IMG/VR virus record: IMGVR_UViG_3300021437_000029
Span: 1-48,173 of that record
From: a virus
Length of the DNA stretch: 48,173 nt
Strand: one strand, 5' to 3'
The position numbers and the translations under genes are program-made. Numbering within the stretch: position 1 is the stretch's first letter; each line of letters starts with the position of its first letter. Under the pieces are notes generated by a model. It saw nothing but the letters and a program-made list of their open reading frames with translations. It was not told where the DNA came from and searched no databases. Below are positions 7,301-40,684 of this stretch, in pieces.

Positions 7301-9672
7301 TTGCCCATCTGTGAACCTTCGAACAAACCTTCGACGTCACGCGCCGAGTCCAAGGCCGCAATGCCGCTGATAGATGAAACGGTAGCATTCACAACCGGAG
7401 CTTGCTCGGCAGTTACGGCCGCAAGTTGTGCGACTTGATGCTGACGAAGTTGGGTAGTTTCTGCGGCAAGAAAAGAATTGGAACGCGGCAGAGTTGGGAT
7501 GTTGTCCGCATGCACCAATATGGGTTTAATATCATTCTGCATCCACATGTTGCCAGTAAGGGCCGGCTTGATGCCGGGATCAGAGATGCCCGCACTTTCA
7601 CGAACGGCTGCTTGCAAGAGGTCCACCTTGGACTCAGTGGGAGAGACACCATCGAAAATCTCCCCAAGGTCTTTAGTGCCTGATGCAGCCATATCTGAGA
7701 AGAACGAAGTCAGCGGGCTCATGCGGTCATAGGTACCAGCCGGCATATTCAAGCGCTGCAAGAATTCTTCCGGCAGCATTCCGCTTTTATTTAGCGCACG
7801 CAATGCAGTTTTCGTAACGCCACCCAGTACATTGTTGATGCCACGGCGGAATTCCTGGTAGCGTTCGTTGGTGATGTGGAGCAAAACATCGTCCATATCA
7901 TGGAAACCATCCAGCGAAATGTGGGCGTTAATGTCCGGGTTCTTTTGCCCCACGGATGCAATGAGATCGAGCTCGCGCCACGGTCGTTGCGGCGAAAGCA
8001 CAATGGAGGGTTGAACCGGAGAGGCCTTCCACGAATTGATCATCTTGCTGCCGACCGCCTGCAAGGCATCGAAATCCTCCTGCACGGGATTTTGCGGCAT
8101 CGTGATGTTAAAGTTGTGATCAATGCGGATGTCATTGCCGGCATCCGAAGTGGTGTGCAGGAATTTAACCGGCTGAATAGAGCCAGTTTGCGGAGAAGGC
8201 GTGCTCAGTCTGCGAGCCGGTGCACCCTCATCGCCCCAGAATGAACTGGTAGTATCTTGCGTTGCAGCTTTCGGAGTGAAAGAACCTGCAGTAATATCCG
8301 ACATGTCGTGGTTATCGAAGAACCGAGCGGCACGTGTGGAATAGTTATTGATGGAACCGTCGCCTTCAACAACATAGCGATAGTTGTCGAGTGCATTCAG
8401 CACTGTATCAAATTGGCCCTGCAATGCCCCGGCTTGTTCAGGAGTAATTGCCTTGCCGTGCTGCAGCAGCGTTGGGATTTCACTGCGCATAGTTTCGTTG
8501 TATGAACGCTGGTCCGCAATGTCGGCAAGAAACGAGTCTTTGTCACCAGGCAATGCAGTAAATTTCTTGGCACCGACGAAGGCCAGCGGATTATCCGTCA
8601 ACGTGTTGCGCAAGACCTGATGCTGGTCATCGGTCAGGTTAATTTTCGGCGCCATATCCAGGGGATAGGGGTCAGAAGCAACGCCATCGAATTGCTTGCG
8701 AAGCACACCATCGATTACCGAAATATCCGACGTAGCATTCGAACGATTGGTGGCCGTAAATCCTGGAGCCTGCGTAACTGCATAGCTGTCATTGCGTGCC
8801 GCAGCATACGTGGAGATACCAATGCCACGCTCGCCTGTATGGAAAGTTGTGTTGGCTAAAGTTTCTTCAAGCGGAGAGAGCGTGCGCGCGGTATCCCACA
8901 CACCACGAAAGATTTTGTTGACGGCGAACCGAGCTGCCACAAAGTCGATGCCGGATTGGAAGGCCGCACCAGCTACACCCCATTTGGCGTAGTCAGCGGT
9001 AGTCTGGTCGGAGGGCATCAAGACGCTGTTGTTGTAGAGCCCACCATAAGCAGCATCGAATACAGCGCTCTGCCGCAAACTCTCGGCAAACTGGCCTCTG
9101 TAATAGGCATTTTTCGCAGCGGAAGTTGCTGCGGAATTGAGCGTACGCCCGGTAATAATTCCAACATCTGCGCTGGCATTCGTAGCAGCATCCGTGACAC
9201 CCTGCTGTAATTGAGTAAGCCGAGTACTCGAACCAAGCAAAGCATCGGCCGTTGTACTATTCTTCAAGAAGTCACCGAAGACGCCAGTTTCGCGGGCCCA
9301 ACGTGCACCCTTGAGTACTTTCATGCCGAGAGTACCGGGGATGGCCATACCCACAATATCCGATGCGGTGCGGATGGGGGTACGGTTCCGGGCATACCAA
9401 TCGCCGAAACCTTGTGGGCCGAAGACGCTGGTCAAAGTATTACTGACATCTGAGTCCTTCAAGACTCCGACTGAAGTGCCCATAGTATCAACAAGACCAG
9501 CAGCAAGACCTGGGAGACCATATACAGCCAACCTTCCCAGTTGCTGATCTTGTTGAACTTGTTGCGAACCAAGCGTCGAAACCTGACCTGTGCCCAACGT
9601 ATTGGGTGTCGGCCCTGCAGTGTCCTCGAATTCATTTGAGTTTCCCGCATTAGGCACAAAATTATACGCCAT
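4390..9672 (-). CDS. Giant internal virion / DNA ejection protein, 1760 aa
   Basis: This is the largest gene of the phage and the last of the late operon. By size, position and composition it corresponds to the very large ejected core proteins of podoviruses (T7 gp16-like role), which help carry DNA through the cell envelope. The sequence is Ala, Asn and Gln rich, with a polar low-complexity N-terminus and long helical stretches. Hydrophobic segments occur near the N-terminus (QLGRLAVYGLPGLAAGLVDT) and in the last third (TPLLNYLGVATVLPAVVASM). No transglycosylase or other enzyme motif was recognised. The start has a clean GGAG ribosome site. The function is inferred from context and not from a domain match. 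Confidence 0.75.
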   Translation of the reverse strand: MAYNFVPNAGNSNEFEDTAGPTPNTLGTGQVSTLGSQQVQQDQQLGRLAVYGLPGLAAGLVDTMGTSVGVLKDSDVSNTLTSVFGPQGFGDWYARNRTPIRTASDIVGMAIPGTLGMKVLKGARWARETGVFGDFLKNSTTADALLGSSTRLTQLQQGVTDAATNASADVGIITGRTLNSAATSAAKNAYYRGQFAESLRQSAVFDAAYGGLYNNSVLMPSDQTTADYAKWGVAGAAFQSGIDFVAARFAVNKIFRGVWDTARTLSPLEETLANTTFHTGERGIGISTYAAARNDSYAVTQAPGFTATNRSNATSDISVIDGVLRKQFDGVASDPYPLDMAPKINLTDDQHQVLRNTLTDNPLAFVGAKKFTALPGDKDSFLADIADQRSYNETMRSEIPTLLQHGKAITPEQAGALQGQFDTVLNALDNYRYVVEGDGSINNYSTRAARFFDNHDMSDITAGSFTPKAATQDTTSSFWGDEGAPARRLSTPSPQTGSIQPVKFLHTTSDAGNDIRIDHNFNITMPQNPVQEDFDALQAVGSKMINSWKASPVQPSIVLSPQRPWRELDLIASVGQKNPDINAHISLDGFHDMDDVLLHITNERYQEFRRGINNVLGGVTKTALRALNKSGMLPEEFLQRLNMPAGTYDRMSPLTSFFSDMAASGTKDLGEIFDGVSPTESKVDLLQAAVRESAGISDPGIKPALTGNMWMQNDIKPILVHADNIPTLPRSNSFLAAETTQLRQHQVAQLAAVTAEQAPVVNATVSSISGIAALDSARDVEGLFEGSQMGKGVMGYADRVNQYNNTMKSLQLVTQYNDQIIQNVTAKQLESQAPFTAALTSRENIADAIDVNRVQQSYRHGYVVKSVDFVPVAGDTGQNVTHFILDKDDPRNLSAIQLYFGKDAIPPSNANGDWLMPDMALSQRNAGNIIPLEVSENAGAAAKNLSDLTLQQGSEANVIRQMLGLPPIQLRDFHLPAPELYSDKAWFVQNSQGKTINIYSRGTAATNESLAKDASDLLTNQTGEIHTAINSATVQRQAAADASMFNIMDYSDFLNKNSAMHGGLIETQIDRTPQSYLDMVKSLTNNYLAVGTRARALLLEPQLNYARMAASVTPESGFLKEYNIFDRYVATAYSRSTRNPNGTMAQLYGKIENTTDALLSVAYNAWTGLKGAAGEELQSFLKKNIEPKEYAQYMAKAQAYSPFNNVAQWLESTYKPQAPWTTRATLAEVSKVSNALAIRMLNGGTPLLNYLGVATVLPAVVASMRRRPGEADADFMARNGAFGMDLGRLDSNGNFAFSPMKALAQGFKHEFDGSLTEPMNRAAAMGMLDPEYTSIDRILSQEKTGTKSGLDNFINAASMLADKSETHSRKIVWGIGYSMAKDMIGYQDERNQFIFAQHLVNQVIGNYSPQNKPGIFQGALGMPLGAFQTYMFNYYRRLLSYVENRDVRAIGTQFALQGSVFGAAGLPGWNAWNQYIGSDGIQSDTLEGRINRNLPPMASELLLHGSVSNIPRLFGQDGIALYSRGSVDMSKYMPTVGSYAGVTPTPLTYLYDANKLPPIQLITNMGNIMQQTASNFLNGFSLQQQEEILSHYSTNRFIKNVMDMAANSATDKSGQVIANGTMDFMHLAATLAGSVPSQERALQDAYYQQKIVDANQSGLRQELNQRTRAMIRSGNYGIADMQKAVYDYTRSGGDPAEFGNWLRNNTITATQSKTSLKLRSLMSSAQGIEFQNMLAAMQKEPDNSDIEPVSPDLQDTSSGR

Positions 9673-9699: not shown

Positions 9700-12003
9700 T
9701 TATTGCTGTTGCATTTGATACTGTTGTTGCTGCAATTGCCGCATCTGCTGCACGGTCAATCGAGCCCCAGTAGAACTCATTACTTTGTCTTCCGAAAGTG
9801 GCTGCAATTTGTGCATGACAAACGCGTCAGCCATAGGATTGCCAACCGGTGAACCAACCATATAGGCACGGTCATGCGCCATAGCAGCTTCACTGCGTTG
9901 CACAGTTTGGCCATTGACGTCCTGACGAATGAGGTTACCCAAGTCACGTTGCGAATTTTGCGACTCTTGCAGGTAGGCATTGTAGGCGCCATTTGCACCC
10001 TCGACATAGGGAGATGCACCACCGAACAGACGCGCGGCAAGTGCATGGTCATAAACGGTCAGTTCAGGATCAGCCCCAAGGACAGGCCGTGCATTCTGGC
10101 GAACCCGGTTCAGGGCCTGCTGATACGTATTCAGGTAGACACCACGCATATTGCGGCCGCCGGGGCCATTCGCGGCAGTGGCTTCCAATTCCATCTTACC
10201 GAGGGTATCAGCCAAAACACGGGGATTGATACTGCCGGTGTTGTCGGACCAGAGGTATTGGTTTTCCGGAGCCGCAAGTTGTTTCCAGACTGGAGCGGCG
10301 CGCGGATCACTGGCCAACAATTGCATAGCTCGACGCATGGCCAATGCGCCAATCTGATTGGTGACATCGATCTTCGTCTGCTTCAACACTGCCGGATCTT
10401 GCAGTACCTGACCCATGGCCATTTGCTTGCCCTTTGTGGGGTTGGTAACCATGGTTGCGAAGATACCGCTGCCGACACCGCCTTTGAGTGAAGACGCGAC
10501 AGCATCCTCTTCGGCCTTGCGTAGACTGGCGAAGGAGTCCCGGAAAAGCGAAGTATCCGTATTACCGGGATTTACTGCAGTTGCAGCCAAGAAATTCGTG
10601 GCATCGGCGGGAGTGAAGTAACCCGTTCTTGCCGCATTAAGGAATGCTTGCTGCCCTTCCTTGGTGGGAATTTTGCCGGAAATAGCTTTAGCCGAAGCCT
10701 GCACTTGCAAGTCGGCTTGGTTCAGCATGCCATTCAACATATGCATGTCACCAAGACCCATCTGACTACCGACCTTAGGTAGGGTCTGGAATGCACGAGA
10801 CACACCGGCCAGTTTCGGATCCATACCGCCGAGGAAACTGAGCGAACTTGTCATCCCAGCAAGGCGGTCCTGCAGGGAATTGCGGTCGGCATAGTTAGCG
10901 GCAACCATATTGGAATAGTCGTTGGCCTGCTTCTGGCTCTTTACATAGGCATCTTTAGCCAAGGAAACCGGGATTTGGATTACCGTATGGTTGAACGGAT
11001 TGCGCATGGCAATGATATCAGAGCCAGCATTATCTGCCTGTTGAATTCCTGCCGCCAATTCTTCCGGGCGTAGGGTGCTTAACAACTTCGACAGATTGGC
11101 AATGCTTTTGTTCTGCTGTGCCGCATCAAAGTTATCTTTGAATTCCATACGCCGATAATTCTCGACCTGCCATACACCTTGCTCAGGGCCCTGAATTTGG
11201 GCACGTCTTGCAACTTCATTATTAGACGCATCACTGACCGTGACACGAAGAAGCTGCTGTTGTCTGTCGGTCAGGCTGGCACGATAACCCAAATCTTCTT
11301 GCAAGTATCCAAGATATTCCTTGTTCAAGTCAAGACCAGACTTGATGGCATTCATCTTGTTTTCTGCAATGCCCGCCTGCAGCGACGCGATAGTAGGTTG
11401 CGCATTGTTGACATCCATCTGCGCTTGAACCATCTGCGTAACATCGGATGTCCTTTGCTGCGCAGCCGCAATTCGGTTGGTTTGGTACTTGCGGTTGAAG
11501 TCAGTATCGAACATGCCGAGCAGGCCGGTGATGGCTTGCCCAGCTTCACCTAGATCACCGGGCAGCCCGGAGAACCTGTCGAGGAATTGAATTTTCGGCA
11601 GGGCGTCATCTGTGACTTCCTGCTGGTTCTGATAGGCAGTAATAATGCCATTCTGCAAAGCAGCATTCTGCTTCGTAGCGTCGATCTTAGCTTGGATGGC
11701 TGCTTCTGTCTGGGCCGTAGCCAATCCAAGCGTTTGCTGGGCGGATTGAATACCCTGATAGAAATCACCCGTACTCATCGGTGCCGGTGTTTGTGCCGAG
11801 GCATCCGGAGAACCAGAGTTTGCTACCGCAGTCGACTGTGAGATTGGCCCAGCCGGAACCATCTGATCCGCAGGTGCAGGATTAGCGGCAGCGGTCGTGG
11901 CAGTATTGTTGTATCTGGAGATAATGGTATCCAGTACATTCTGAATAGCCGTATTGCTATTATCGGATGTGAGTGCTTCAGGCTGAATTGAGGCATCGGC
12001 CAT
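9700..12003 (-). CDS. Putative internal virion protein, 767 aa
   Basis: A large Ala- and Gln-rich helical protein that begins with a disordered Ser/Pro/Ala segment and ends in a glutamine run (QQQQYQMQQQ). A segment in the first half (NKEYLGYLQEDLGYRASLTDRQQQLL) is predicted by eye to be strongly helical. It sits between a 331-aa and a 1760-aa protein in the tail end of the late operon, the place where podoviruses encode ejection proteins (T7 gp15-like role). An AGGAG ribosome site precedes the ATG. There is no recognised catalytic motif. Confidence 0.65.
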   Translation of the reverse strand: MADASIQPEALTSDNSNTAIQNVLDTIISRYNNTATTAAANPAPADQMVPAGPISQSTAVANSGSPDASAQTPAPMSTGDFYQGIQSAQQTLGLATAQTEAAIQAKIDATKQNAALQNGIITAYQNQQEVTDDALPKIQFLDRFSGLPGDLGEAGQAITGLLGMFDTDFNRKYQTNRIAAAQQRTSDVTQMVQAQMDVNNAQPTIASLQAGIAENKMNAIKSGLDLNKEYLGYLQEDLGYRASLTDRQQQLLRVTVSDASNNEVARRAQIQGPEQGVWQVENYRRMEFKDNFDAAQQNKSIANLSKLLSTLRPEELAAGIQQADNAGSDIIAMRNPFNHTVIQIPVSLAKDAYVKSQKQANDYSNMVAANYADRNSLQDRLAGMTSSLSFLGGMDPKLAGVSRAFQTLPKVGSQMGLGDMHMLNGMLNQADLQVQASAKAISGKIPTKEGQQAFLNAARTGYFTPADATNFLAATAVNPGNTDTSLFRDSFASLRKAEEDAVASSLKGGVGSGIFATMVTNPTKGKQMAMGQVLQDPAVLKQTKIDVTNQIGALAMRRAMQLLASDPRAAPVWKQLAAPENQYLWSDNTGSINPRVLADTLGKMELEATAANGPGGRNMRGVYLNTYQQALNRVRQNARPVLGADPELTVYDHALAARLFGGASPYVEGANGAYNAYLQESQNSQRDLGNLIRQDVNGQTVQRSEAAMAHDRAYMVGSPVGNPMADAFVMHKLQPLSEDKVMSSTGARLTVQQMRQLQQQQYQMQQQ

Positions 12004-21869: not shown

Positions 21870-22361
21870 TCATTTAACGGAATGCGTGACTTCCTTCGGA
21901 TCGACTTTCGTCAAGCCAGGGATGGTAGGAACCGGTGTGGTAGGAGCAGCTGGTTGCTGAACGAACTCCGGAGGAATACCGAATGCCAGAGCCTGTTCAA
22001 TATCGCCCTCCGTGGCGGTCATCGAACCAAGCAACTGCTCAGGCAACTTCGTACCCACATTACGAGCGGGCGGAGCAGCACCACGACACACAGAACATGC
22101 AATGATTGGAGTGTTCTTGACCGCTTTGTCCATTTCATCCATCTGTTTGTCGGTCAGATGAAAGACGTAATTTTCCGAAGTCACATTACCAGAGGGCAAC
22201 GCGATGGTCAACTCTTTGTGACACGGACTGACATAAATCAAATCAGGACCTGCGGGCGCCGCAACAGGCGCTTCGGACTTATCCGTATCTTCCTTTTTCG
22301 GAGTCGCGCCAGCCTCCCGAGCTTTCAGCGAACCCTTAAGGGTATACGTGCTTTCCGTCAT
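21870..22361 (-). CDS. Head-region protein of unknown function, 163 aa
   Basis: The gene lies between the major capsid and the adaptor. Low-complexity ends (Lys/Glu/Ala rich at the start, Pro/Thr/Val rich at the end) surround a small central domain containing YVSPCHKELTIALPSGNV and ACSVC. It has a GGAGG ribosome site. A capsid decoration or head-completion role fits the position. No family is recognised. Confidence 0.6.
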   Translation of the reverse strand: MTESTYTLKGSLKAREAGATPKKEDTDKSEAPVAAPAGPDLIYVSPCHKELTIALPSGNVTSENYVFHLTDKQMDEMDKAVKNTPIIACSVCRGAAPPARNVGTKLPEQLLGSMTATEGDIEQALAFGIPPEFVQQPAAPTTPVPTIPGLTKVDPKEVTHSVK

Positions 22362-22380
22362 CTATACCTCCATGTGAATA

Positions 22381-22402
22381 GGAGGAGGCATAAACCTCCT
22401 CC
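22381..22402 (-). terminator. Hairpin just after the major capsid gene
   Basis: An 8-bp GC-rich stem (GGAGGAGG 22381-22388 with CCTCCTCC 22395-22402) and a 6-nt loop sit between the capsid gene and its downstream neighbour. No T-run follows, so it could be a leaky terminator or an mRNA-stabilising end that keeps capsid mRNA abundant. Confidence 0.4.
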
Positions 22403-22421
22403 CAACTCACCCATTGTGGCC

Positions 22422-23585
22422 TTAGCCAGCCAAGTTGATGTTCCGCAGCGCACCGGCAGTCTTCGGGCACCGGAACTCCGTGGTCATTTCCGTGGTGAAA
22501 CCGCCAGCTTTCGCATCGCGACCCGTCTCACCGACGGTGTATTCCTTCGTACGGCGCAAGTAGCAGACCGTCATGGCGCCCGGATGCAGAATGCGCAAGT
22601 CTTTCGACCACGTCGGATTTGCATTGAACATCGGGTGGGTCATGAGCGAAATCTGTCCGTACGGAGAAATCCACTGGAACACCTTCATGCCGAACGTGGT
22701 AGCGCCCGGCACGATGTTCATCGTGGTATTAGACTTGGCAATGGCATTCAGAACGCCGACGGCCGTGTTGCCGCAGAAAGCAAGACGTTCCTGCGGCTTT
22801 CCCTGGATCTGGTGCAAAAACACCGAAGACAGGAATGCATCGATCGAAGCATACGTGGATGCCGTACCGGTAGCGATATTGGTGATGTTCTGCGTGTTGT
22901 AATAGTCAACACCACCCATGGTCGCGATACGTTTGCCGCCCTGCGAAGCCACCCACCGACGACCGAACCAGAGAGTACGTTCGATGTCTTCCGCATGGGT
23001 GAAAGCAGCCTGCGCACGCGAGTTGGCCACCTTGTCGCCGGTCTTGTACGTGATGACGCTGGTCGTATTCGAAACATCCCATGCCGTACGGAAAATCTGC
23101 GTGACGTTCCAGTACGGAATGCCCTGCTCATACACGGCGGTCGGGGCTTCCGAAGCTTCCGAGAAAGCCGTGCCGATGCGCTGGATGTAGTCACCAGTGG
23201 CAATGGCCGCCGCCGAGGCACCAGTATCCTGGAAACCACGAACGACGGTCAAGGTGTTGCCAGAAACATCGGTAACGAAAATGCGTTCGCAGGTCTTCTC
23301 AACCAGATAGAACTGGCCGGGAACAACCGACGAACCATCCGTCAACGAAAGAGCCGTGGCAGCACCATTAGCCTGGGTAGCCGCAGCCGCGAGGCGCCCC
23401 GTAGAATGTTCTTCGTCGAACCACATGGTAGACCATGTGCCCGCCAAATCACGTGCCTGCATGCCCGAAGACAGGGCAAGCAAAGGAGCGGTGCCACCAG
23501 TAGTAGTCCGGAGTACCGCGGAAGCGAAATCGGGGCTGGTTTCGCCCTGAATGCCGCTATCCGAAAGAAAGACGCCTCTGATCAT
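22422..23585 (-). CDS. Major capsid protein (DUF5309-like)
   Basis: A 387-aa capsid subunit of probable HK97 fold. It resembles the DUF5309 (SU10-like) group: an N-terminal region with WSTMWFDEEHSTGRL, a strand-rich segment (FYLVEKTCERIFVTDVSGNTLTVVRG), YWNVTQIFRTAWDVSNT, then DIERTLWFGRR and IATMGGVDYYN. The end has MTTEFRCPKTAGALRNIN. Codon use is markedly biased to GC-ending codons, as expected for the most abundant virion protein. It follows the scaffold gene and is followed by a hairpin. It has an AAGGAA ribosome site. Confidence 0.85.
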   Translation of the reverse strand: MIRGVFLSDSGIQGETSPDFASAVLRTTTGGTAPLLALSSGMQARDLAGTWSTMWFDEEHSTGRLAAAATQANGAATALSLTDGSSVVPGQFYLVEKTCERIFVTDVSGNTLTVVRGFQDTGASAAAIATGDYIQRIGTAFSEASEAPTAVYEQGIPYWNVTQIFRTAWDVSNTTSVITYKTGDKVANSRAQAAFTHAEDIERTLWFGRRWVASQGGKRIATMGGVDYYNTQNITNIATGTASTYASIDAFLSSVFLHQIQGKPQERLAFCGNTAVGVLNAIAKSNTTMNIVPGATTFGMKVFQWISPYGQISLMTHPMFNANPTWSKDLRILHPGAMTVCYLRRTKEYTVGETGRDAKAGGFTTEMTTEFRCPKTAGALRNINLAG

Positions 23586-23606
23586 TTTAGTTCCTTTCCA
23601 TTAGCG

Positions 23607-24464
23607 TTAGGCACCACCGCCGAGAACGCTCATCCAATCAATCTGATCCGTGCTGGGTTGCGGACTTCCCGAATACGAACCGTTGAAGCTTGCATTCGCC
23701 GGCTGTTGCTGTTGCTGCGTAGCCTGACTCATGGCGGCGAAATAAGCACGAGTCATGCCAATTGCTGTCGGAACATCCACCCCAGTGTCGAGAGCCTTTT
23801 TCATAACGGTCTCGGCTACCGGAGCGAAAGCCGGATTTGCCGTAAAGGGCAGTGCTTGCTGCATCTGCTGCCTTGCGGCATTCCCCTCCACGAAAGTCTT
23901 GGTCTGCTGCCCGGAAGCCTGTAAGGCCTTCGAAACCGCATCCTTCACAAGTGCCCCCGATGCTTTGATGGCCGCCGTGAATGCACGTTGCTGCGCATCA
24001 TTGACAATCCGTTCGAGTGAACCGTAGTTGCCCTGCTGCAATTCCTGACGTTGCGTGTCATTCAAAGAAACGGGGGTGAGCCCCAGTTGCTGCATGACAT
24101 ATTGCTGCTGCTGTTCTACGGTTGCCACCGGTGCCGCCGCGGGGGCTGCTGCCGGGTTAGCTGGAGGGACTCCCGGTTGGGCATTCGACTGCACCGGTGG
24201 CTTCCACATACTTGCAAAAAAATCATTGAGATTACTTTTGTTATCCGCAGAAGCGGCAGCCGGTGCAGCATTCGGATTGGTGACCGTCTGCGGCTGGTTC
24301 GTACTGGCAGCCGATTGGGCCAAAAAGCCAGCACCCTGCGTGGGGGCAGCCGCGCCCGTCGAAGTCGCACCCTGTGGGGCAGCCCCAGCATTCGTCGGAA
24401 CAACCGAAGTATTTTCGATTGCCGGAAAGTCTGCCCCCGGCATGGCATTACCTACGAAGCTCAT
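23607..24464 (-). CDS. Scaffolding protein
   Basis: A 285-aa hydrophilic protein immediately before the capsid gene. The N-terminal 90 residues are Ala/Pro/Thr rich and disordered. The middle is helical and Gln/Ala rich (VATVEQQQQYVMQQLGLTP, NAARQQMQQAL). A short C-terminal part (STDQIDWMSVLGGGA) may be the capsid-binding tail. The composition and position are typical of assembly scaffolds. Its ATG follows directly on the stop of the 93-aa gene. Confidence 0.75.
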   Translation of the reverse strand: MSFVGNAMPGADFPAIENTSVVPTNAGAAPQGATSTGAAAPTQGAGFLAQSAASTNQPQTVTNPNAAPAAASADNKSNLNDFFASMWKPPVQSNAQPGVPPANPAAAPAAAPVATVEQQQQYVMQQLGLTPVSLNDTQRQELQQGNYGSLERIVNDAQQRAFTAAIKASGALVKDAVSKALQASGQQTKTFVEGNAARQQMQQALPFTANPAFAPVAETVMKKALDTGVDVPTAIGMTRAYFAAMSQATQQQQQPANASFNGSYSGSPQPSTDQIDWMSVLGGGA

Positions 24465-32009: not shown

Positions 32010-32040
32010 CTTTTGCCGCAATTTGCACCCAATAAGGCAA

Positions 32041-32073
32041 AAGAAAAGCCCGGCGATAAACCGGGCTTTTCTT
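32041..32073. terminator. Bidirectional rho-independent terminator
   Basis: A perfect 13-bp stem (AAGAAAAGCCCGG at 32041-32053 with CCGGGCTTTTCTT at 32061-32073) around a 7-nt loop. The A-rich foot becomes a T-rich end on either strand, so it ends both the rightward 170-aa gene and the leftward 290-aa gene that converge here. Confidence 0.85.
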
Positions 32074-32108
32074 TATTCAGAAAAAGGAAAGAAAGAATTG
32101 ATGCACGA

Positions 32109-32981
32109 TTATTCCACGCTACGACCGGTCGCATCGACGGGACGGTCGACGATATGACCAGTTTCCGCCCGTTTGGCGGTTTTCTTGGCGTCGCGCTTGG
32201 CAATGGCTTCGTCGGCGTCGGCAGACAGCTTGTCGATATCGAGAACGCCGACTTCTTCGTCCGCCAGTTCGGCCCGCACGATGTGACGAGACGCGAGCCA
32301 GTCGCGGAAAATCAAGTCACTCATGCCTTCCTTGCGGGCTTTGGTCGAAAGCACCTTGAGGATCAAATCCCAGTTTTCATCGGGAATGAGCGGCGCAATC
32401 GACTTCGCGGCAGCTTCCGAAATGAGGCAAGAGCGGAAAGCCGTCTTGTCCAAGACGCGGAAAGCACGAGGCGAATTCTTGCCCTGCATCGCGACCAACA
32501 CGACCGGCGCCAGAAGCTGGAACGGCCGTTCGGAGATTTTCGGCAGAACCGCGGCAATCGGCGACTGCAAACGAGCAATCGAAACGTCGGGGTTTTTCGT
32601 GTTCCGCGCGAGCGAAGTGGTCATGAGCTGGTAAGCAAAATCGGCCACCTCGGGAATGGCGAACAGCTTTTCACGCGAAGGAATTGCCACGAGGCGATAG
32701 CGATAAGGCTGTGCTTCGTCGCCGGTTTCATAGCGAGCGAGCAGAACCAAGGCGTCGTCGCCATATTCCACCGGCTTTTTCTCGCCAGTCTCGGGATCGG
32801 CCACCGAAGTGGCATCGTCCAGAAGATTGTTTTCGTCGAGCGCAGCGGCAACCTGAAAAATTCCCTCAATGGGAAATTCCAGCGAGTTGACGGAGTGTTT
32901 GCCCTTTTCACCAGTCAAGATCTTTTCGATGCGGTCCGTCTTAGTATCGACAGCCGCGGCAACAGTGCCAGCTTCGGACAT
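32109..32981 (-). CDS. Lone leftward protein of unknown function, 290 aa
   Basis: The only leftward gene outside the structural block. The ATG at 32981 has an AAAGGAA ribosome site; a further upstream Met lacks one. Its own promoter (33065-33093) and terminator (32041-32073) make it a single-gene transcript. The product is a soluble alpha/beta protein of 290 aa with an N-terminal IEKILTGEKGKHSVNSLEFPIEGIFQ, a central RPFQLLAPVVLVAMQG, and an Ala/Lys/Asp-rich C-terminus. Codon use is GC-ending, which suggests strong expression. No family is recognised. An early host-control or DNA-binding role is possible but unsupported. Confidence 0.75.
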   Translation of the reverse strand: MSEAGTVAAAVDTKTDRIEKILTGEKGKHSVNSLEFPIEGIFQVAAALDENNLLDDATSVADPETGEKKPVEYGDDALVLLARYETGDEAQPYRYRLVAIPSREKLFAIPEVADFAYQLMTTSLARNTKNPDVSIARLQSPIAAVLPKISERPFQLLAPVVLVAMQGKNSPRAFRVLDKTAFRSCLISEAAAKSIAPLIPDENWDLILKVLSTKARKEGMSDLIFRDWLASRHIVRAELADEEVGVLDIDKLSADADEAIAKRDAKKTAKRAETGHIVDRPVDATGRSVE

Positions 32982-33064
32982 AATGTGTGTTCCTTTGCAA
33001 AAGATGCGGATGCGCCGCACAGCGCGTCGTCGAAGATTTGAAAACCTTCAATCGACAATCTTGC

Positions 33065-35566: not shown

Positions 35567-37624
35567 ATGTCACTATTGGATGAATTCAAGCAGGCACAAG
35601 CCCAAGCCGGTATCGGAAAAAGTGCAGGTGTATCTCCGAAGCTGCACGTGTTGAAGCCTCTTATTGCAAAGCCCGTGGCGGCGAAGCCGTTGAAGCCTGC
35701 GAAGTCCGCACCGCCCAAAAATTTCACCTTGCGCGGTACTGGCCTCACTCAGAAGATTTTGCAGAAAGACGCGGCCGCTGCCGTCCGTGTGTTCGAGAAG
35801 GACAAGCTCGCGGATGCGGAAGCCAATGAGGCTATTGACGCGCAAAGCAATGCTATTGCCGAGACCATGGAAAGCATTGCCGCGGAAACTCAAAATATCT
35901 CCGGCCTGACACTTGATGCATCGCAGTTGCGCGCATTGGAAGGCTTGCTTACTAACCGTTGCTCTGTCCTTATTGGCGCGGCAGGTACCGGCAAGACCAC
36001 TTTGCTGCATCGTGCACTTGATAGCATACTTCTGGAAACCGCTGCCCATTCTTATCAAACGGGCGAAGTGGCAACGGAAGCCGATGCACACACCGCCGCT
36101 GCCGCCTCCATTGCTATTGCCGCATTTACTGGCCGAGCTTCGCAGCAAGCACGCCGCGTTCTTCCGGCGGAATTCTCGCAAAACGTTTCAACCATCCACG
36201 CGATGCTTGGTTTTCACCCGGAATATACTGAGAAAAGCGTTGACTCGTTGATCGACAAAGGCCGGTCTATTGTTACAAAAACTGTGCAATTCGTTCCTGA
36301 ATACACCGCCGATCACAAATTGCCTTTCAGCTTCATTATCATCGACGAAGCCTCTATGGTTCCCGTTCCGCTATGGAAGCAAATCGTGGATGCGTGCCGC
36401 CCGGATACTCGTTTCATTCTTATTGGCGATATTCACCAATTGCCGCCAGTCGGGAGCAAGAGCGTTTTAGGTTTTGCCTTGGCAAAGTGGCCGGTTTTCG
36501 AACTGACTGAAATTCATCGTCAGGCGAAGGGCAATCCCATTATCCGCAATGCGCATCATATCCTGCATGGCGAATTCCCGGAAAGCGTGAAGCACTTCTA
36601 CATCGTGGGTGCTTCTGGCGGTGCGAAGGACAAAACTGGGAAAGCTTTACGCATTCCCGCCGGTGCTACTCAGGTGCAGCATTTCTTCTTGCGTCAACTC
36701 ATTCAGATGCACTCGCGCGGTTTATACGATCCATTGCGTGATGCCGTCATTGTGCCGAAGAAGACACCCAATTCGCCACTTTCCACCGTCAATTTGAACA
36801 ATTACCTCGTGCCGATGATGAACCCGCCGCGCAAGGTTGAGGGGCAGAATGTCATTCTCAACCCGCGTACGCCCATCCATACCGGCACTGGTATTGTGCA
36901 TTTTGCCGTGGGTGACAAGGTCATGATAACTGCCAATATCAACACCCACGTGCCGCCGATCACTAACGGACAGACTGGGATTGTTGAACGTATTGCCGTC
37001 AATCTGAATTACGATCAAGATAGGGGTGGCGCACAGTTCGGTAAGGACGGCATTGAAAGCGGTAACGTCTCTGCCGCGGATGCGCCCGACAGTGGCATTG
37101 ATTTAGGTGCGGCTTTGGAAGAGCTTGCCTCCGATGCACTCGATGATTTTTCTGTCTCCACCGGCGAGGACGAAAGCGAGAACGAAAAGCCTGACAATGA
37201 GCCGGAAGAGCAACGCCAAGCTTCGCACACCATGACAATTCGGTTTGATAATGGTGATAGCTTCACGTCGCACACCGCGGGTGACTTTGCGAAGGTGACC
37301 TTCGGATATGCCATTACGTGCCATAAGGCGCAAGGTGGCGAATACCCGAACGTCTTCATTCTCTGCCATTCCTCGGACTACGCCGGTCATTTGCTCACAC
37401 GTGAGTGGCTTTACACAGCCGTCACACGTGCTCGCGAAAACTGCTTCCTGTATTGCGATGATAAGGGACTTGCGAAAGCTTTGTCCGAACAGAAAATCAT
37501 CGGCAATACCTTGGAGGACAAAATCCGTTCATTCCAAGTTTACTCCGGTTCTTCGGGCCGCGAAAATCAAGCTGTGCTTCCTGACAATGTTGTCCTTGAT
37601 CGCAGCGCAAGCCGGTATCTCTAA
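35567..37624 (+). CDS. RecD-like SF1B DNA helicase
   Basis: A 685-aa helicase that moves on single-stranded DNA 5'-3' by family precedent. The core begins near residue 117. Motif I is GAAGTGKT (137-144), motif II IIIDEAS (257-263), motif III GDIHQLPPVG (287-296), followed by FELTEIHRQ. C-terminal motifs are VTFGYAITCHKAQGGEYP and YTAVTRARE, the latter including the arginine finger. An acidic insertion of about 80 residues (LEELASDALDDFSVSTGEDES) interrupts the second RecA fold. The N-terminal 110 residues are basic and unrecognised. It may act in recombination with the Cas4-like nuclease or at the fork. Confidence 0.9.
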   Translation: MSLLDEFKQAQAQAGIGKSAGVSPKLHVLKPLIAKPVAAKPLKPAKSAPPKNFTLRGTGLTQKILQKDAAAAVRVFEKDKLADAEANEAIDAQSNAIAETMESIAAETQNISGLTLDASQLRALEGLLTNRCSVLIGAAGTGKTTLLHRALDSILLETAAHSYQTGEVATEADAHTAAAASIAIAAFTGRASQQARRVLPAEFSQNVSTIHAMLGFHPEYTEKSVDSLIDKGRSIVTKTVQFVPEYTADHKLPFSFIIIDEASMVPVPLWKQIVDACRPDTRFILIGDIHQLPPVGSKSVLGFALAKWPVFELTEIHRQAKGNPIIRNAHHILHGEFPESVKHFYIVGASGGAKDKTGKALRIPAGATQVQHFFLRQLIQMHSRGLYDPLRDAVIVPKKTPNSPLSTVNLNNYLVPMMNPPRKVEGQNVILNPRTPIHTGTGIVHFAVGDKVMITANINTHVPPITNGQTGIVERIAVNLNYDQDRGGAQFGKDGIESGNVSAADAPDSGIDLGAALEELASDALDDFSVSTGEDESENEKPDNEPEEQRQASHTMTIRFDNGDSFTSHTAGDFAKVTFGYAITCHKAQGGEYPNVFILCHSSDYAGHLLTREWLYTAVTRARENCFLYCDDKGLAKALSEQKIIGNTLEDKIRSFQVYSGSSGRENQAVLPDNVVLDRSASRYL

Positions 37625-38309: not shown

Positions 38310-39251
38310 ATGCCTAACCCGCAATTGCGCAGTGTAGTGAATGCTACACTGCTTGCACTCATGCGCACCCCGCTAGACGTGCCGCTGAAAATCACGTGCA
38401 ACGTAGGTGAAGGCCAGAACCTTTTGCTTTCGATGCGGGTGAAGCTATCGCGCGAACGTCAACACGCGGAAAAAGCTGGGGTGAAATTCACGGATTTTTA
38501 TCTAGCTAACCTTGCGATTGAAACTAATCCCAAAAATCCCAGCGAGGAATTCTTGTTCTGTGTGCGGACGTTGACGAAGAAAGGACGTCGCGAAGAGTAC
38601 TCGTTCTTGCGAGAAATGCATTCCGTTATGTGGCGTGATCGTCATGCATTGCTTGACAAAATGGAACGTGACTCAGTTGCGGCCACAAACTTCAAGCGTG
38701 ACGACGTCCGAACAAAGCAAGATGATTTGCTTGCCAAGAAAAATGCAGCGACCTTCAATGCCATTGTGTTTGTAGAAGGTGTGCGAAAATCCTATGAAAT
38801 AGCGACAGGTGAAGAAAATGCAGCAACTCAAATCACTGGTGACACCAGCGAAGAAACCGTTAACGCCTTTAGTTCCTATGAAGACGACTTTGACGAGTCA
38901 AGCGGCGCAAGCGAACCAAGCTCCGGTAACGGCAAAGCCGTTGAATACGTCACAACCCCTACCGGCAAATACCGGGTTATCACACCCGATGAACGCGACA
39001 CCGAACGTTACGGTTCCGGCCGCGAATTCGACGGCGACAACCCCTTCGGAAACCTCCTTGACGAAGCCGACTCCGAACGAGAACAAAACGGAAACGAAAA
39101 CGGGATCGTCTCTGCTATCCCGCTTCAAGGCGTACCAAGCTCAAGCAGTGGCAGCGCAACCTCCGGCAGTTCAAGTACCGGCCCCAGCCAAACAGCCGCC
39201 AGTGGTCCGCAAAACAGCTCTGGCAAGTGGTCTAGGTTCATCCACCGCTGA
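38310..39251 (+). CDS. Hypothetical protein, 313 aa, overlapping the next gene in another frame
   Basis: The first 170 residues form a convincing domain (LKITCNVGEGQNLLLSMRVKLSRERQHAEKA, FTDFYLANLAIETN, EEFLFCVRTLTKKGRREEYSF). The remaining 143 residues are acidic and Ser/Gly rich and lie over the first half of the next gene in a different frame. In that stretch nearly every codon ends in C, unlike upstream. Function unknown. The gene is either dual-coding with its neighbour, or the two are joined by a frame change into one product. Confidence 0.65.
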   Translation: MPNPQLRSVVNATLLALMRTPLDVPLKITCNVGEGQNLLLSMRVKLSRERQHAEKAGVKFTDFYLANLAIETNPKNPSEEFLFCVRTLTKKGRREEYSFLREMHSVMWRDRHALLDKMERDSVAATNFKRDDVRTKQDDLLAKKNAATFNAIVFVEGVRKSYEIATGEENAATQITGDTSEETVNAFSSYEDDFDESSGASEPSSGNGKAVEYVTTPTGKYRVITPDERDTERYGSGREFDGDNPFGNLLDEADSEREQNGNENGIVSAIPLQGVPSSSSGSATSGSSSTGPSQTAASGPQNSSGKWSRFIHR

Positions 39252-39639
39252 ACTGGCCGCGTCAGTTGTCTCGCGTACTATCCCGGAAGAATTCGCTAAG
39301 AACGAAGATGCGAAGGATCTGTGTGCGGCTTTCGATGAATTGCGGCAATCCTTGGACGATCCTGAAATGCTGGGGCAGCAATTGCGCAACCTCATGCTCA
39401 TGATGAAACAGCACCCCGAGTTGTATGCGGTTGTAACGGACGACGATTTTGATGTTGCCGCGCAAGCCGCAAGCGTGGTGCTGCAAAAGGCTCGCATGGT
39501 CAAGACGGAACGCAAGACGAAACGCACCGCCCGCGTTGAAGCCGTCGATGAAATGACACAAATGCTGCAAGATGCTGGCATTTCGGATGCATCGGGTGCC
39601 GAAGACATTAGCAATTTCTTCGGCAGTATGAAAATCTAA
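38818..39639 (+). CDS. Hypothetical protein, 273 aa, starts inside the preceding gene
   Basis: The ATG at 38818 (or a GTG nine bases earlier) follows AGGTGAAG. The first 145 residues are a Pro/Ala/Thr/Lys-rich linker overlapping the previous gene. The non-overlapping C-terminal domain (DLCAAFDELRQSLDDPEMLGQQLRNLMLMMKQHPELYAVVTDDDFDVAAQAASVVLQKARM) is helical and well formed. A C-terminal tail SGAEDISNFFGSMKI ends it. The function is unknown. Codon use in this frame is typical for the phage (CCG, ACG, GCG, TTG). The gene ends 13 bases before the Cas4-like nuclease. Confidence 0.65.
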   Translation: MQQLKSLVTPAKKPLTPLVPMKTTLTSQAAQANQAPVTAKPLNTSQPLPANTGLSHPMNATPNVTVPAANSTATTPSETSLTKPTPNENKTETKTGSSLLSRFKAYQAQAVAAQPPAVQVPAPAKQPPVVRKTALASGLGSSTAELAASVVSRTIPEEFAKNEDAKDLCAAFDELRQSLDDPEMLGQQLRNLMLMMKQHPELYAVVTDDDFDVAAQAASVVLQKARMVKTERKTKRTARVEAVDEMTQMLQDAGISDASGAEDISNFFGSMKI

Positions 39640-39652
39640 GGAGGCATTCACC

Positions 39653-40684
39653 ATGCCTGTACTCAAAATGCTTTCCGTGCAAGAACAAATTGCGGAGAAT
39701 GAGCGGCTTTATTACGAAAGCCCTCTTATTCTCTCGCATTCATTGCGCGGTGTGCTGAATGGTTGTCAGCGCAAATACGAATTCGCCTCACGTTTTCGTG
39801 CAACCGGCCAAACCGAAGATGAATACGCCGCTGATTGCGGTACGGCTTTGCATATTGGCGTTCAAGCTTTCACAAAAACCCGTGACTACAACACGGCCCT
39901 TTTTGAATTCATGCGCAACTTTCCCTACGAGACCGAATTCGGTTCTACGAATGGTGACATGCTTTCTACGTCGCAATTGCGCTCACGGCAGGTGCGTTCA
40001 TTCGAGGCGTGCATTGCCGTGTTCGACAAAATCGTAACCGAATTCAATTGGGACCGTTACGAAATTGCCACGTTTGAAATTACGAATTCGCGTGGCGAAA
40101 AGCAGGTAGTGGATGGAATTGAAATTTCATTTGCTATCGAAATGCTAAACACGGGCATAAATCTGCCGGTGTTTTTTATGGGCCACATTGACTTGATCCT
40201 TCGCGACACGCGCAATGGCGAGCTTGTGGTTTTCGACATTAAGACGACGCGCAAACAACTCACGGAAGCGCGCTGGACTTACGATCAACAGACGCGACCT
40301 TACGGTTTGGTTATCTCCGCGCTTACTGGTCAAGAGATAACGCATTTCAGCACGCACTATTTGGCCGCATACATCGACGTCATGGAGCCGCAATGCACGG
40401 ACTTTGAAATTCTGTGCACGGAACGTGAGATTGCTGATTGGGTTTATGGCATTGCCGAGGACATTCACATCCTTAGGCGGAGCCTTAACCGCGGCCTATG
40501 GCTTCGTACAAGCAGCGGCTCACAATGCGTGTCTTACAATTCCACTTGCAAGTTTTATCAGCATTGCAGCATGCGAGACGTCGCGCTTCTGGCTTCATTA
40601 CTTGAGCGGCCAGAGGACGACAAATTCTATAACCCCGACAAGGCACTGGTGCACAGTAGCCTAGACATGAAGGAGTTTATGTGA
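39653..40684 (+). CDS. Cas4/RecB-like PD-(D/E)XK nuclease with probable Fe-S cluster
   Basis: A 343-aa single-strand exonuclease of the PD-(D/E)XK superfamily. The active-site pattern is GTALHIGV (His67), then Glu142, GHIDL (Asp180), DIK (Asp195, Lys197) and a QQTRPYG motif (Gln213 to Gly218). Four cysteines, Cys38 (NGCQRKYEF), Cys292, Cys299 and Cys305, have the one-plus-three spacing of the Fe-S cluster in Cas4 and AddB. A strong AAGGAGG site precedes the ATG. Next to a ligase, a Sak4-like ATPase and a RecD-like helicase, it likely processes DNA ends for recombination. There is no CRISPR array or other cas gene here. Confidence 0.88.
   Translation: MPVLKMLSVQEQIAENERLYYESPLILSHSLRGVLNGCQRKYEFASRFRATGQTEDEYAADCGTALHIGVQAFTKTRDYNTALFEFMRNFPYETEFGSTNGDMLSTSQLRSRQVRSFEACIAVFDKIVTEFNWDRYEIATFEITNSRGEKQVVDGIEISFAIEMLNTGINLPVFFMGHIDLILRDTRNGELVVFDIKTTRKQLTEARWTYDQQTRPYGLVISALTGQEITHFSTHYLAAYIDVMEPQCTDFEILCTEREIADWVYGIAEDIHILRRSLNRGLWLRTSSGSQCVSYNSTCKFYQHCSMRDVALLASLLERPEDDKFYNPDKALVHSSLDMKEFM

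Follow-up and report, generated by a model that had tools for sequence, protein, structure and literature searches.

Can 434 nt of a phage genome encode, in two frames of the same strand, parts of two different proteins, or is one of the two frames an accident? The question is raised by two consecutive genes, here termed X and Y, in a complete, 48,173-base virus record (the window) that is, judging by its terminase, major head protein, tail, DNA polymerase, primase, helicase, exonuclease and ligase genes, a tailed phage. Long same-strand overlaps in bacteria and phages have mostly been dismissed as annotation or sequencing errors and are trimmed by annotation programs. One study of prokaryotes judged every one of the 715 co-directional overlaps above 60 bp that it examined to be a misannotation, 68 of them being 3' extensions of the upstream gene (PMC2478687), and +1 same-strand overlaps in a survey of viral genomes have a median length of 14 nt, with an interquartile range of 8-26 (PMC8903798). 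Compared with the latter, the overlap in the window is not only far longer, but also carries compositional signs of constraint in both frames.

The two frames themselves are beyond dispute: the coordinates, lengths and overlap put forward in a sequence-only reading of this DNA were all found to be exact (Table 1). Called mechanically, the ORF of Y begins at GTG 38809; the ATG at 38818 is its plausible start. The same reading had considered the overlap far longer than normal gene coupling. The X frame passes over Y for 143-144 codons without a stop, which exceeds every one of 677 runs in the same relative frame of 28 other genes of the window, the longest of which spans 119. It had also placed a well-formed domain of each protein outside the overlap, in agreement with the AlphaFold2 models. 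These predict a confident alpha-beta-alpha-beta-beta domain for residues 1-90 of X (pLDDT ~75-92), which includes the basic helix MRVKLSRERQ, followed by a tail mostly below pLDDT 55, and they predict low confidence for residues 1-140 of Y (pLDDT ~45-60) ahead of C-terminal helices (residues 151-250, pLDDT 85-97). The overlap would thus begin well after the fold of X and stop at Y residue 144, where the fold of Y begins. A fold search of PDB and BFVD with the X model returned nothing at E <= 0.001. Two other regions of the window contain opposed ORFs. At 32013-33041, a minus-strand ORF of 303 aa (32109-33020) looks more gene-like than the overlying plus-strand ORF of 342 aa (phase score -1.340 vs -1.380; codon score 0.135 vs -0.026), and at 21882-23924 a plus-strand ORF of 680 aa, antisense to the major head protein gene, has poor coding scores and is probably spurious.

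Table 1. Features of the X/Y locus and its flanking genes, in window coordinates.
Feature	Coordinates	Strand	Extent or basis
RecD/Dda-like helicase, upstream syntenic marker	35567..37624	+	phrog_325 E 1e-62; Pfam AAA_30, UvrD_C_2
Gene X	38310-39251	+	313 aa
X conserved N-terminal domain, ~residues 1-112	38310..38645	+	Relatives-only profile and AlphaFold2 model
X extension outside Y, ~residues 113-169	38646..38816	+	Unmatched in relatives' X genes; codon-position signal remains X-frame
Shine-Dalgarno-like AGGTGA of Y	38807-38812	+	5 nt upstream of ATG 38818; read directly
X overprinted C-terminal tail, residues 170-313, and TGA stop	38817..39251	+	Composition, codon-position tests, model
Gene Y	38818-39639	+	273 aa, ATG start
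X/Y overlap	38818-39251	+	434 nt, Y at +1 relative to X
Y start and N-terminal disordered linker, ~residues 1-142	38818..39243	+	Motif common to relatives; low pLDDT
Y C-terminal helical domain (helices within residues 143-270) and stop	39244..39639	+	Profile, family in ~80 loci, pLDDT
PD-(D/E)XK exonuclease, downstream syntenic marker	39653..40684	+	PF12705 E 6.5e-12; directly after Y-type genes in relatives

Relatives were located through the flanking genes, with the upstream helicase as marker. Helicase and exonuclease searches led to Pseudomonas phages PaMx41/PaP2, Polaromonas phage Tiera and EBPR podovirus 3, at 20-30% identity, and a further search with the flanking genes to some 80 IMG/VR loci, the best of which shares 45% identity in the helicase. 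Phage and viral collections, searched with DNA and with the single proteins X, Y, exonuclease, helicase and terminase, yielded no near relative, a search of a genome collection gave bacterial RecD2-type helicases only, and an alignment of eight exonucleases contained no stretch conserved enough to serve as a query. The nearest group keeps the gene order helicase, X-type, Y-type and exonuclease; 16 X-type and 16 Y-type relatives were aligned and one additional locus (L099) was read, making about 17 syntenic relatives. Their X-type proteins are 103-173 aa long, each a single domain bearing the motif RMRVxLSRxR, and stop close to the Y-type start. Y-type genes occur in the ~80 related loci, and in the more distant Tiera, PaMx41 and EBPR podovirus 3 the Y-type gene is also separate. 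Neither X nor Y had a match above chance level in Pfam or PHROG. A profile from the 16 relatives, built without the window, scores X at 44 bits (envelope residues 3-112), and the relatives-only profile of Y scores the window protein at 46 bits; because the window did not contribute to these profiles, the family assignments are not circular, and the homology of X and of Y to genes of the relatives, and their separateness there, can be taken as demonstrated.

Two PHROG families of PaMx41 are comparable with these proteins. The family of gp41 (phrog_14764, function not assigned) resembles Y in the helical domain, the N-terminal motif with its disordered linker and the position before the exonuclease, and may include it, the link being made not by a direct PHROG match but by iterated profiles of intermediate relatives that take in gp41. 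The family of gp42 (phrog_15217) is, like X, a small protein encoded directly before the Y-type gene and has a similar predicted outline by eye, with no direct match to X and a weak hhalign profile comparison (probability 5%, P 0.007). Other frames were noticed around this junction. The closest relative (L006) has a frame of ~50 aa between X and Y (10283-10432), beginning MKPKKRMMRFTLRR, and in L002 (5664-6101) Tiera_039, located between genes in the places of X and Y, ends in DDDIPF, which resembles the acidic tip found on single-strand binding proteins.

The direction of the event, which was invisible to the sequence-only reading, emerges from this comparison. The N-terminus of Y (MQQLKSLV) agrees with the start that recurs among the Y proteins of relatives (e.g. 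MSTLKALLAKQR and MPSLKEMLEARK), and the motif is followed by the linker, with SSLLSRFKAYQAQ further in, and then by the helical domain, in the order seen in relatives. X residues beyond ~112 have no counterpart in the X genes of relatives. Since the X gene of relatives ends near the start of their Y gene, as expected of overprinting by 3' extension, the X tail is, on this comparison, derived and the novelty of the locus, and the Y linker ancestral. The economical reading is that the Y frame is old over the overlap and that X was extended at its 3' end by ~200 codons, 144 of them on the disordered linker of Y. Junctions in relatives, measured by coordinates, range from a 158-nt gap (L006) to a 74-nt overlap (L012) through overlaps of 1, 4 and 17 nt (the last in L016 and L019), the Y start of L012 being taken as ATG 13407, which carries the family N-terminal motif, instead of a later ATG, and that of L013 being uncertain by a few codons. 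L016, L019 and L012 present shorter extensions in the same relative frame as the window, and it is plausible that they form a series with it. No relative carrying the extension of X was found in phage and viral collections or among the IMG/VR loci, and DNA homology between the X-Y intergene and L006 was not found.

Whether the extension could have stayed open by chance was addressed with tests that are several views of one signal and not independent, and whose P values carry some selection, the case having been picked because no other overlap in the window is as long (a bias answered only in part by the control over 626 windows given below): with the Y residues fixed and codons drawn by phage usage, the probability of no stop in the X frame is 0.00035, and it is 0.0005 under a null respecting the neighbouring base, 0.0039 as a context-corrected product and 0.020 on permutation of Y's own codons. 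None of the 24 codons at which a T ending would create a stop in X ends in T, as against 21 of 119 elsewhere. Even with an open frame given, the X tail departs from expectation in its Cys content (0 vs 7.6 expected, P < 0.001), in its number of Ser, Gly, Pro and Asn residues (59 vs 42, P < 0.001) and in its net charge (-13 vs -0.3, P 0.004), and Y wobble positions, which are the first codon positions of X, contain 99 purines against 82 expected (P 0.0008). The reverse test, with X residues fixed, is uninformative (open Y frame, P 0.11). The tail, predicted to be disordered, is acidic and rich in Ser and Gly, as had been claimed; the accompanying claim that its codons end almost only in C does not hold (C 51%, A 24%, T 19%, G 6%). 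Neither are the codons of Y phage-typical within the overlap, as previously supposed: their third positions (A 30%, G 39%, C 16%, T 15%) are distorted with respect to those of the phage as a whole (A 16%, C 27%, G 27%, T 30%), which is evidence for constraint imposed by X. Compositional constraint is therefore a demonstrated property of the overlap, and by these measures the extension does not look accidental.

Codon-position scores are coding-like for both frames of the overlap (Y, -1.374; X, -1.380). Across 626 windows drawn from the phage's other genes, the X-type frame scores -1.447 on average and -1.404 at most, and none of them contains an alternative frame as coding-like as the X frame of the overlap. 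By thirds, the X signal is strong at 38818-38961 and 38962-39105 and weak at 39106-39249 (P 0.10), and the Y frame is coding in every third (P 0.014, <0.001 and 0.019). When the Y linkers of 17 relatives were scored in the X-type frame with their own codon statistics, 16 gave z values between -1.9 and 1.5, so that the X-frame signal is not a general property of such linkers; the exception (L088, a distant relative with no overlap) reaches z 2.9 at 7452-7790, with one stop in that frame. In the Y linker of L017 (14163-14594), the other alternative frame attains z 3.7, above the true frame, despite two stops. Constraint beyond the single-frame expectation is hence apparent in the single-sequence tests, less so over the last third and on codon permutation (P 0.02).

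The alternative that survives best holds that a point change, a small indel or an assembly error removed the stop of X, and that the frame is open by chance and the tail, translated or not, functionless. Overlaps of this kind are usually read in that way (PMC2478687, class iii), the X tail has no homologue, the contig stems from one metagenome assembly, and the other relative frame is open up to 186 codons in this genome. The locus also has the shape of prokaryotic stop-loss overlaps (PMC3887535; PMC2478687 class iii), with an upstream gene that exceeds its orthologues at the 3' end, a downstream gene of normal make-up and the relative phase of most long overlaps; simulations likewise make 3' extension the commoner overlap route (PMC3887535). 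Those prokaryotic cases, however, averaged 121 bp and were judged errors, whereas the extension in the window is longer and departs from the accidental-frame null. Against mere stop loss stand the ~200 stop-free codons, which reach beyond the overlap alone, and the composition of the tail. The X-frame signal, moreover, continues across 38610-38969, where an indel would shift it, which also makes a hidden indel before the overlap unlikely. The class iii shape thus lowers the prior for dual coding and the composition evidence raises it again, and a neutral or erroneous extension seems to us improbable.

It had further been suggested that programmed frameshifting, or a base error splitting one gene, makes a single protein of X and Y. 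Both frames being open, a +1 shift anywhere in the overlap would join them, and the signal is best in X up to ~38910 and in Y thereafter, a profile that one switch could also give. The coding signal of X, however, lasts until 39105 and that of Y is present from 38818 onward, a pattern not expected from a single switch point. To pass from X to Y, ribosomes must shift by +1 or -2; stops occur throughout the -1 frame, so that a -1 shift could not yield a fusion, and +1/-2 sites elsewhere in the overlap were searched non-exhaustively. RNA structure around the Y start is not notable (z 1.14), Rfam gave no match, and promoter and terminator patterns are no more numerous than chance would give. Y has its own ATG, Shine-Dalgarno-like site and N-terminal motif, its relatives start at their own ATG with that recurring motif, and X- and Y-type genes are separate in all relatives read, among which a single continuous frame, proposed as the observation that would remove dual coding, was looked for and not found. 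The one-protein option therefore goes unsupported, the data call for no fused product, and it can be given very little credence. No more credible is a Y start further downstream, with only X coding in most of the overlap: it would suit those relatives in which Y is the helical domain alone and the unsurprising openness of the Y frame given X (P 0.11), but it is at odds with the AGGTGA and the motif M..L..L.., recurrent at relatives' Y starts, that mark ATG 38818, with the want of a subsequent ATG with an obvious Shine-Dalgarno-like site before the folded domain, and with the coding signal of Y in each third.

Genuine dual coding through 3' extension of X, the part of the sequence-only reading that stood and that codon-position, codon-choice and composition tests now support better, is accordingly the reading we favour over neutral or erroneous stop loss, and we hold it to be likely. 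The locus presents two open frames with their own starts, and the X domain and Y each belong to a family. X and Y would be two distinct genes within a replication/recombination block, with translation beginning separately at the start of each; their function we infer from their position in this block and from the basic helix of X. In the ancestor, X would have ended near the Y start, as it does in relatives, and the loss of its stop would have led the frame across the intergene and 434 nt of the disordered linker of Y. Ribosomes starting at 38310 would now make the X domain with an acidic, Cys-free disordered tail, and those starting at ATG 38818 on AGGTGA would make Y with its motif, linker and helical domain. 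Disordered linkers being tolerant of changes in their sequence, selection rather than drift would have kept both readings, at least across 38818-39105, with the wobble positions of Y adjusted so as to double as first codon positions in X. The tail would probably act by touching another protein or by screening the charge of the basic helix in the X domain. As regards the linker, a segment of it (39103-39141, SSLLSRFKAYQAQA) resembles the N-terminus of the helicase (35567-35610, MSLLDEFKQAQAQA), and similar short motifs at the N-termini of relatives' helicase and Y-type proteins possibly represent a shared binding motif.

That this phage evolved de novo an acidic, disordered tail on a replication-block protein from the overprinted linker of its neighbor, in a functional 434-nt overlap kept by selection at the wobble positions of that neighbor, is on balance the more probable outcome. 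Gene callers would probably cut one of the two genes short. The case exposes the ancestral state in relatives together with coding signals in both frames, it offers a concrete target for peptide detection, and it suggests that disordered linkers can be raw material for new protein tails.
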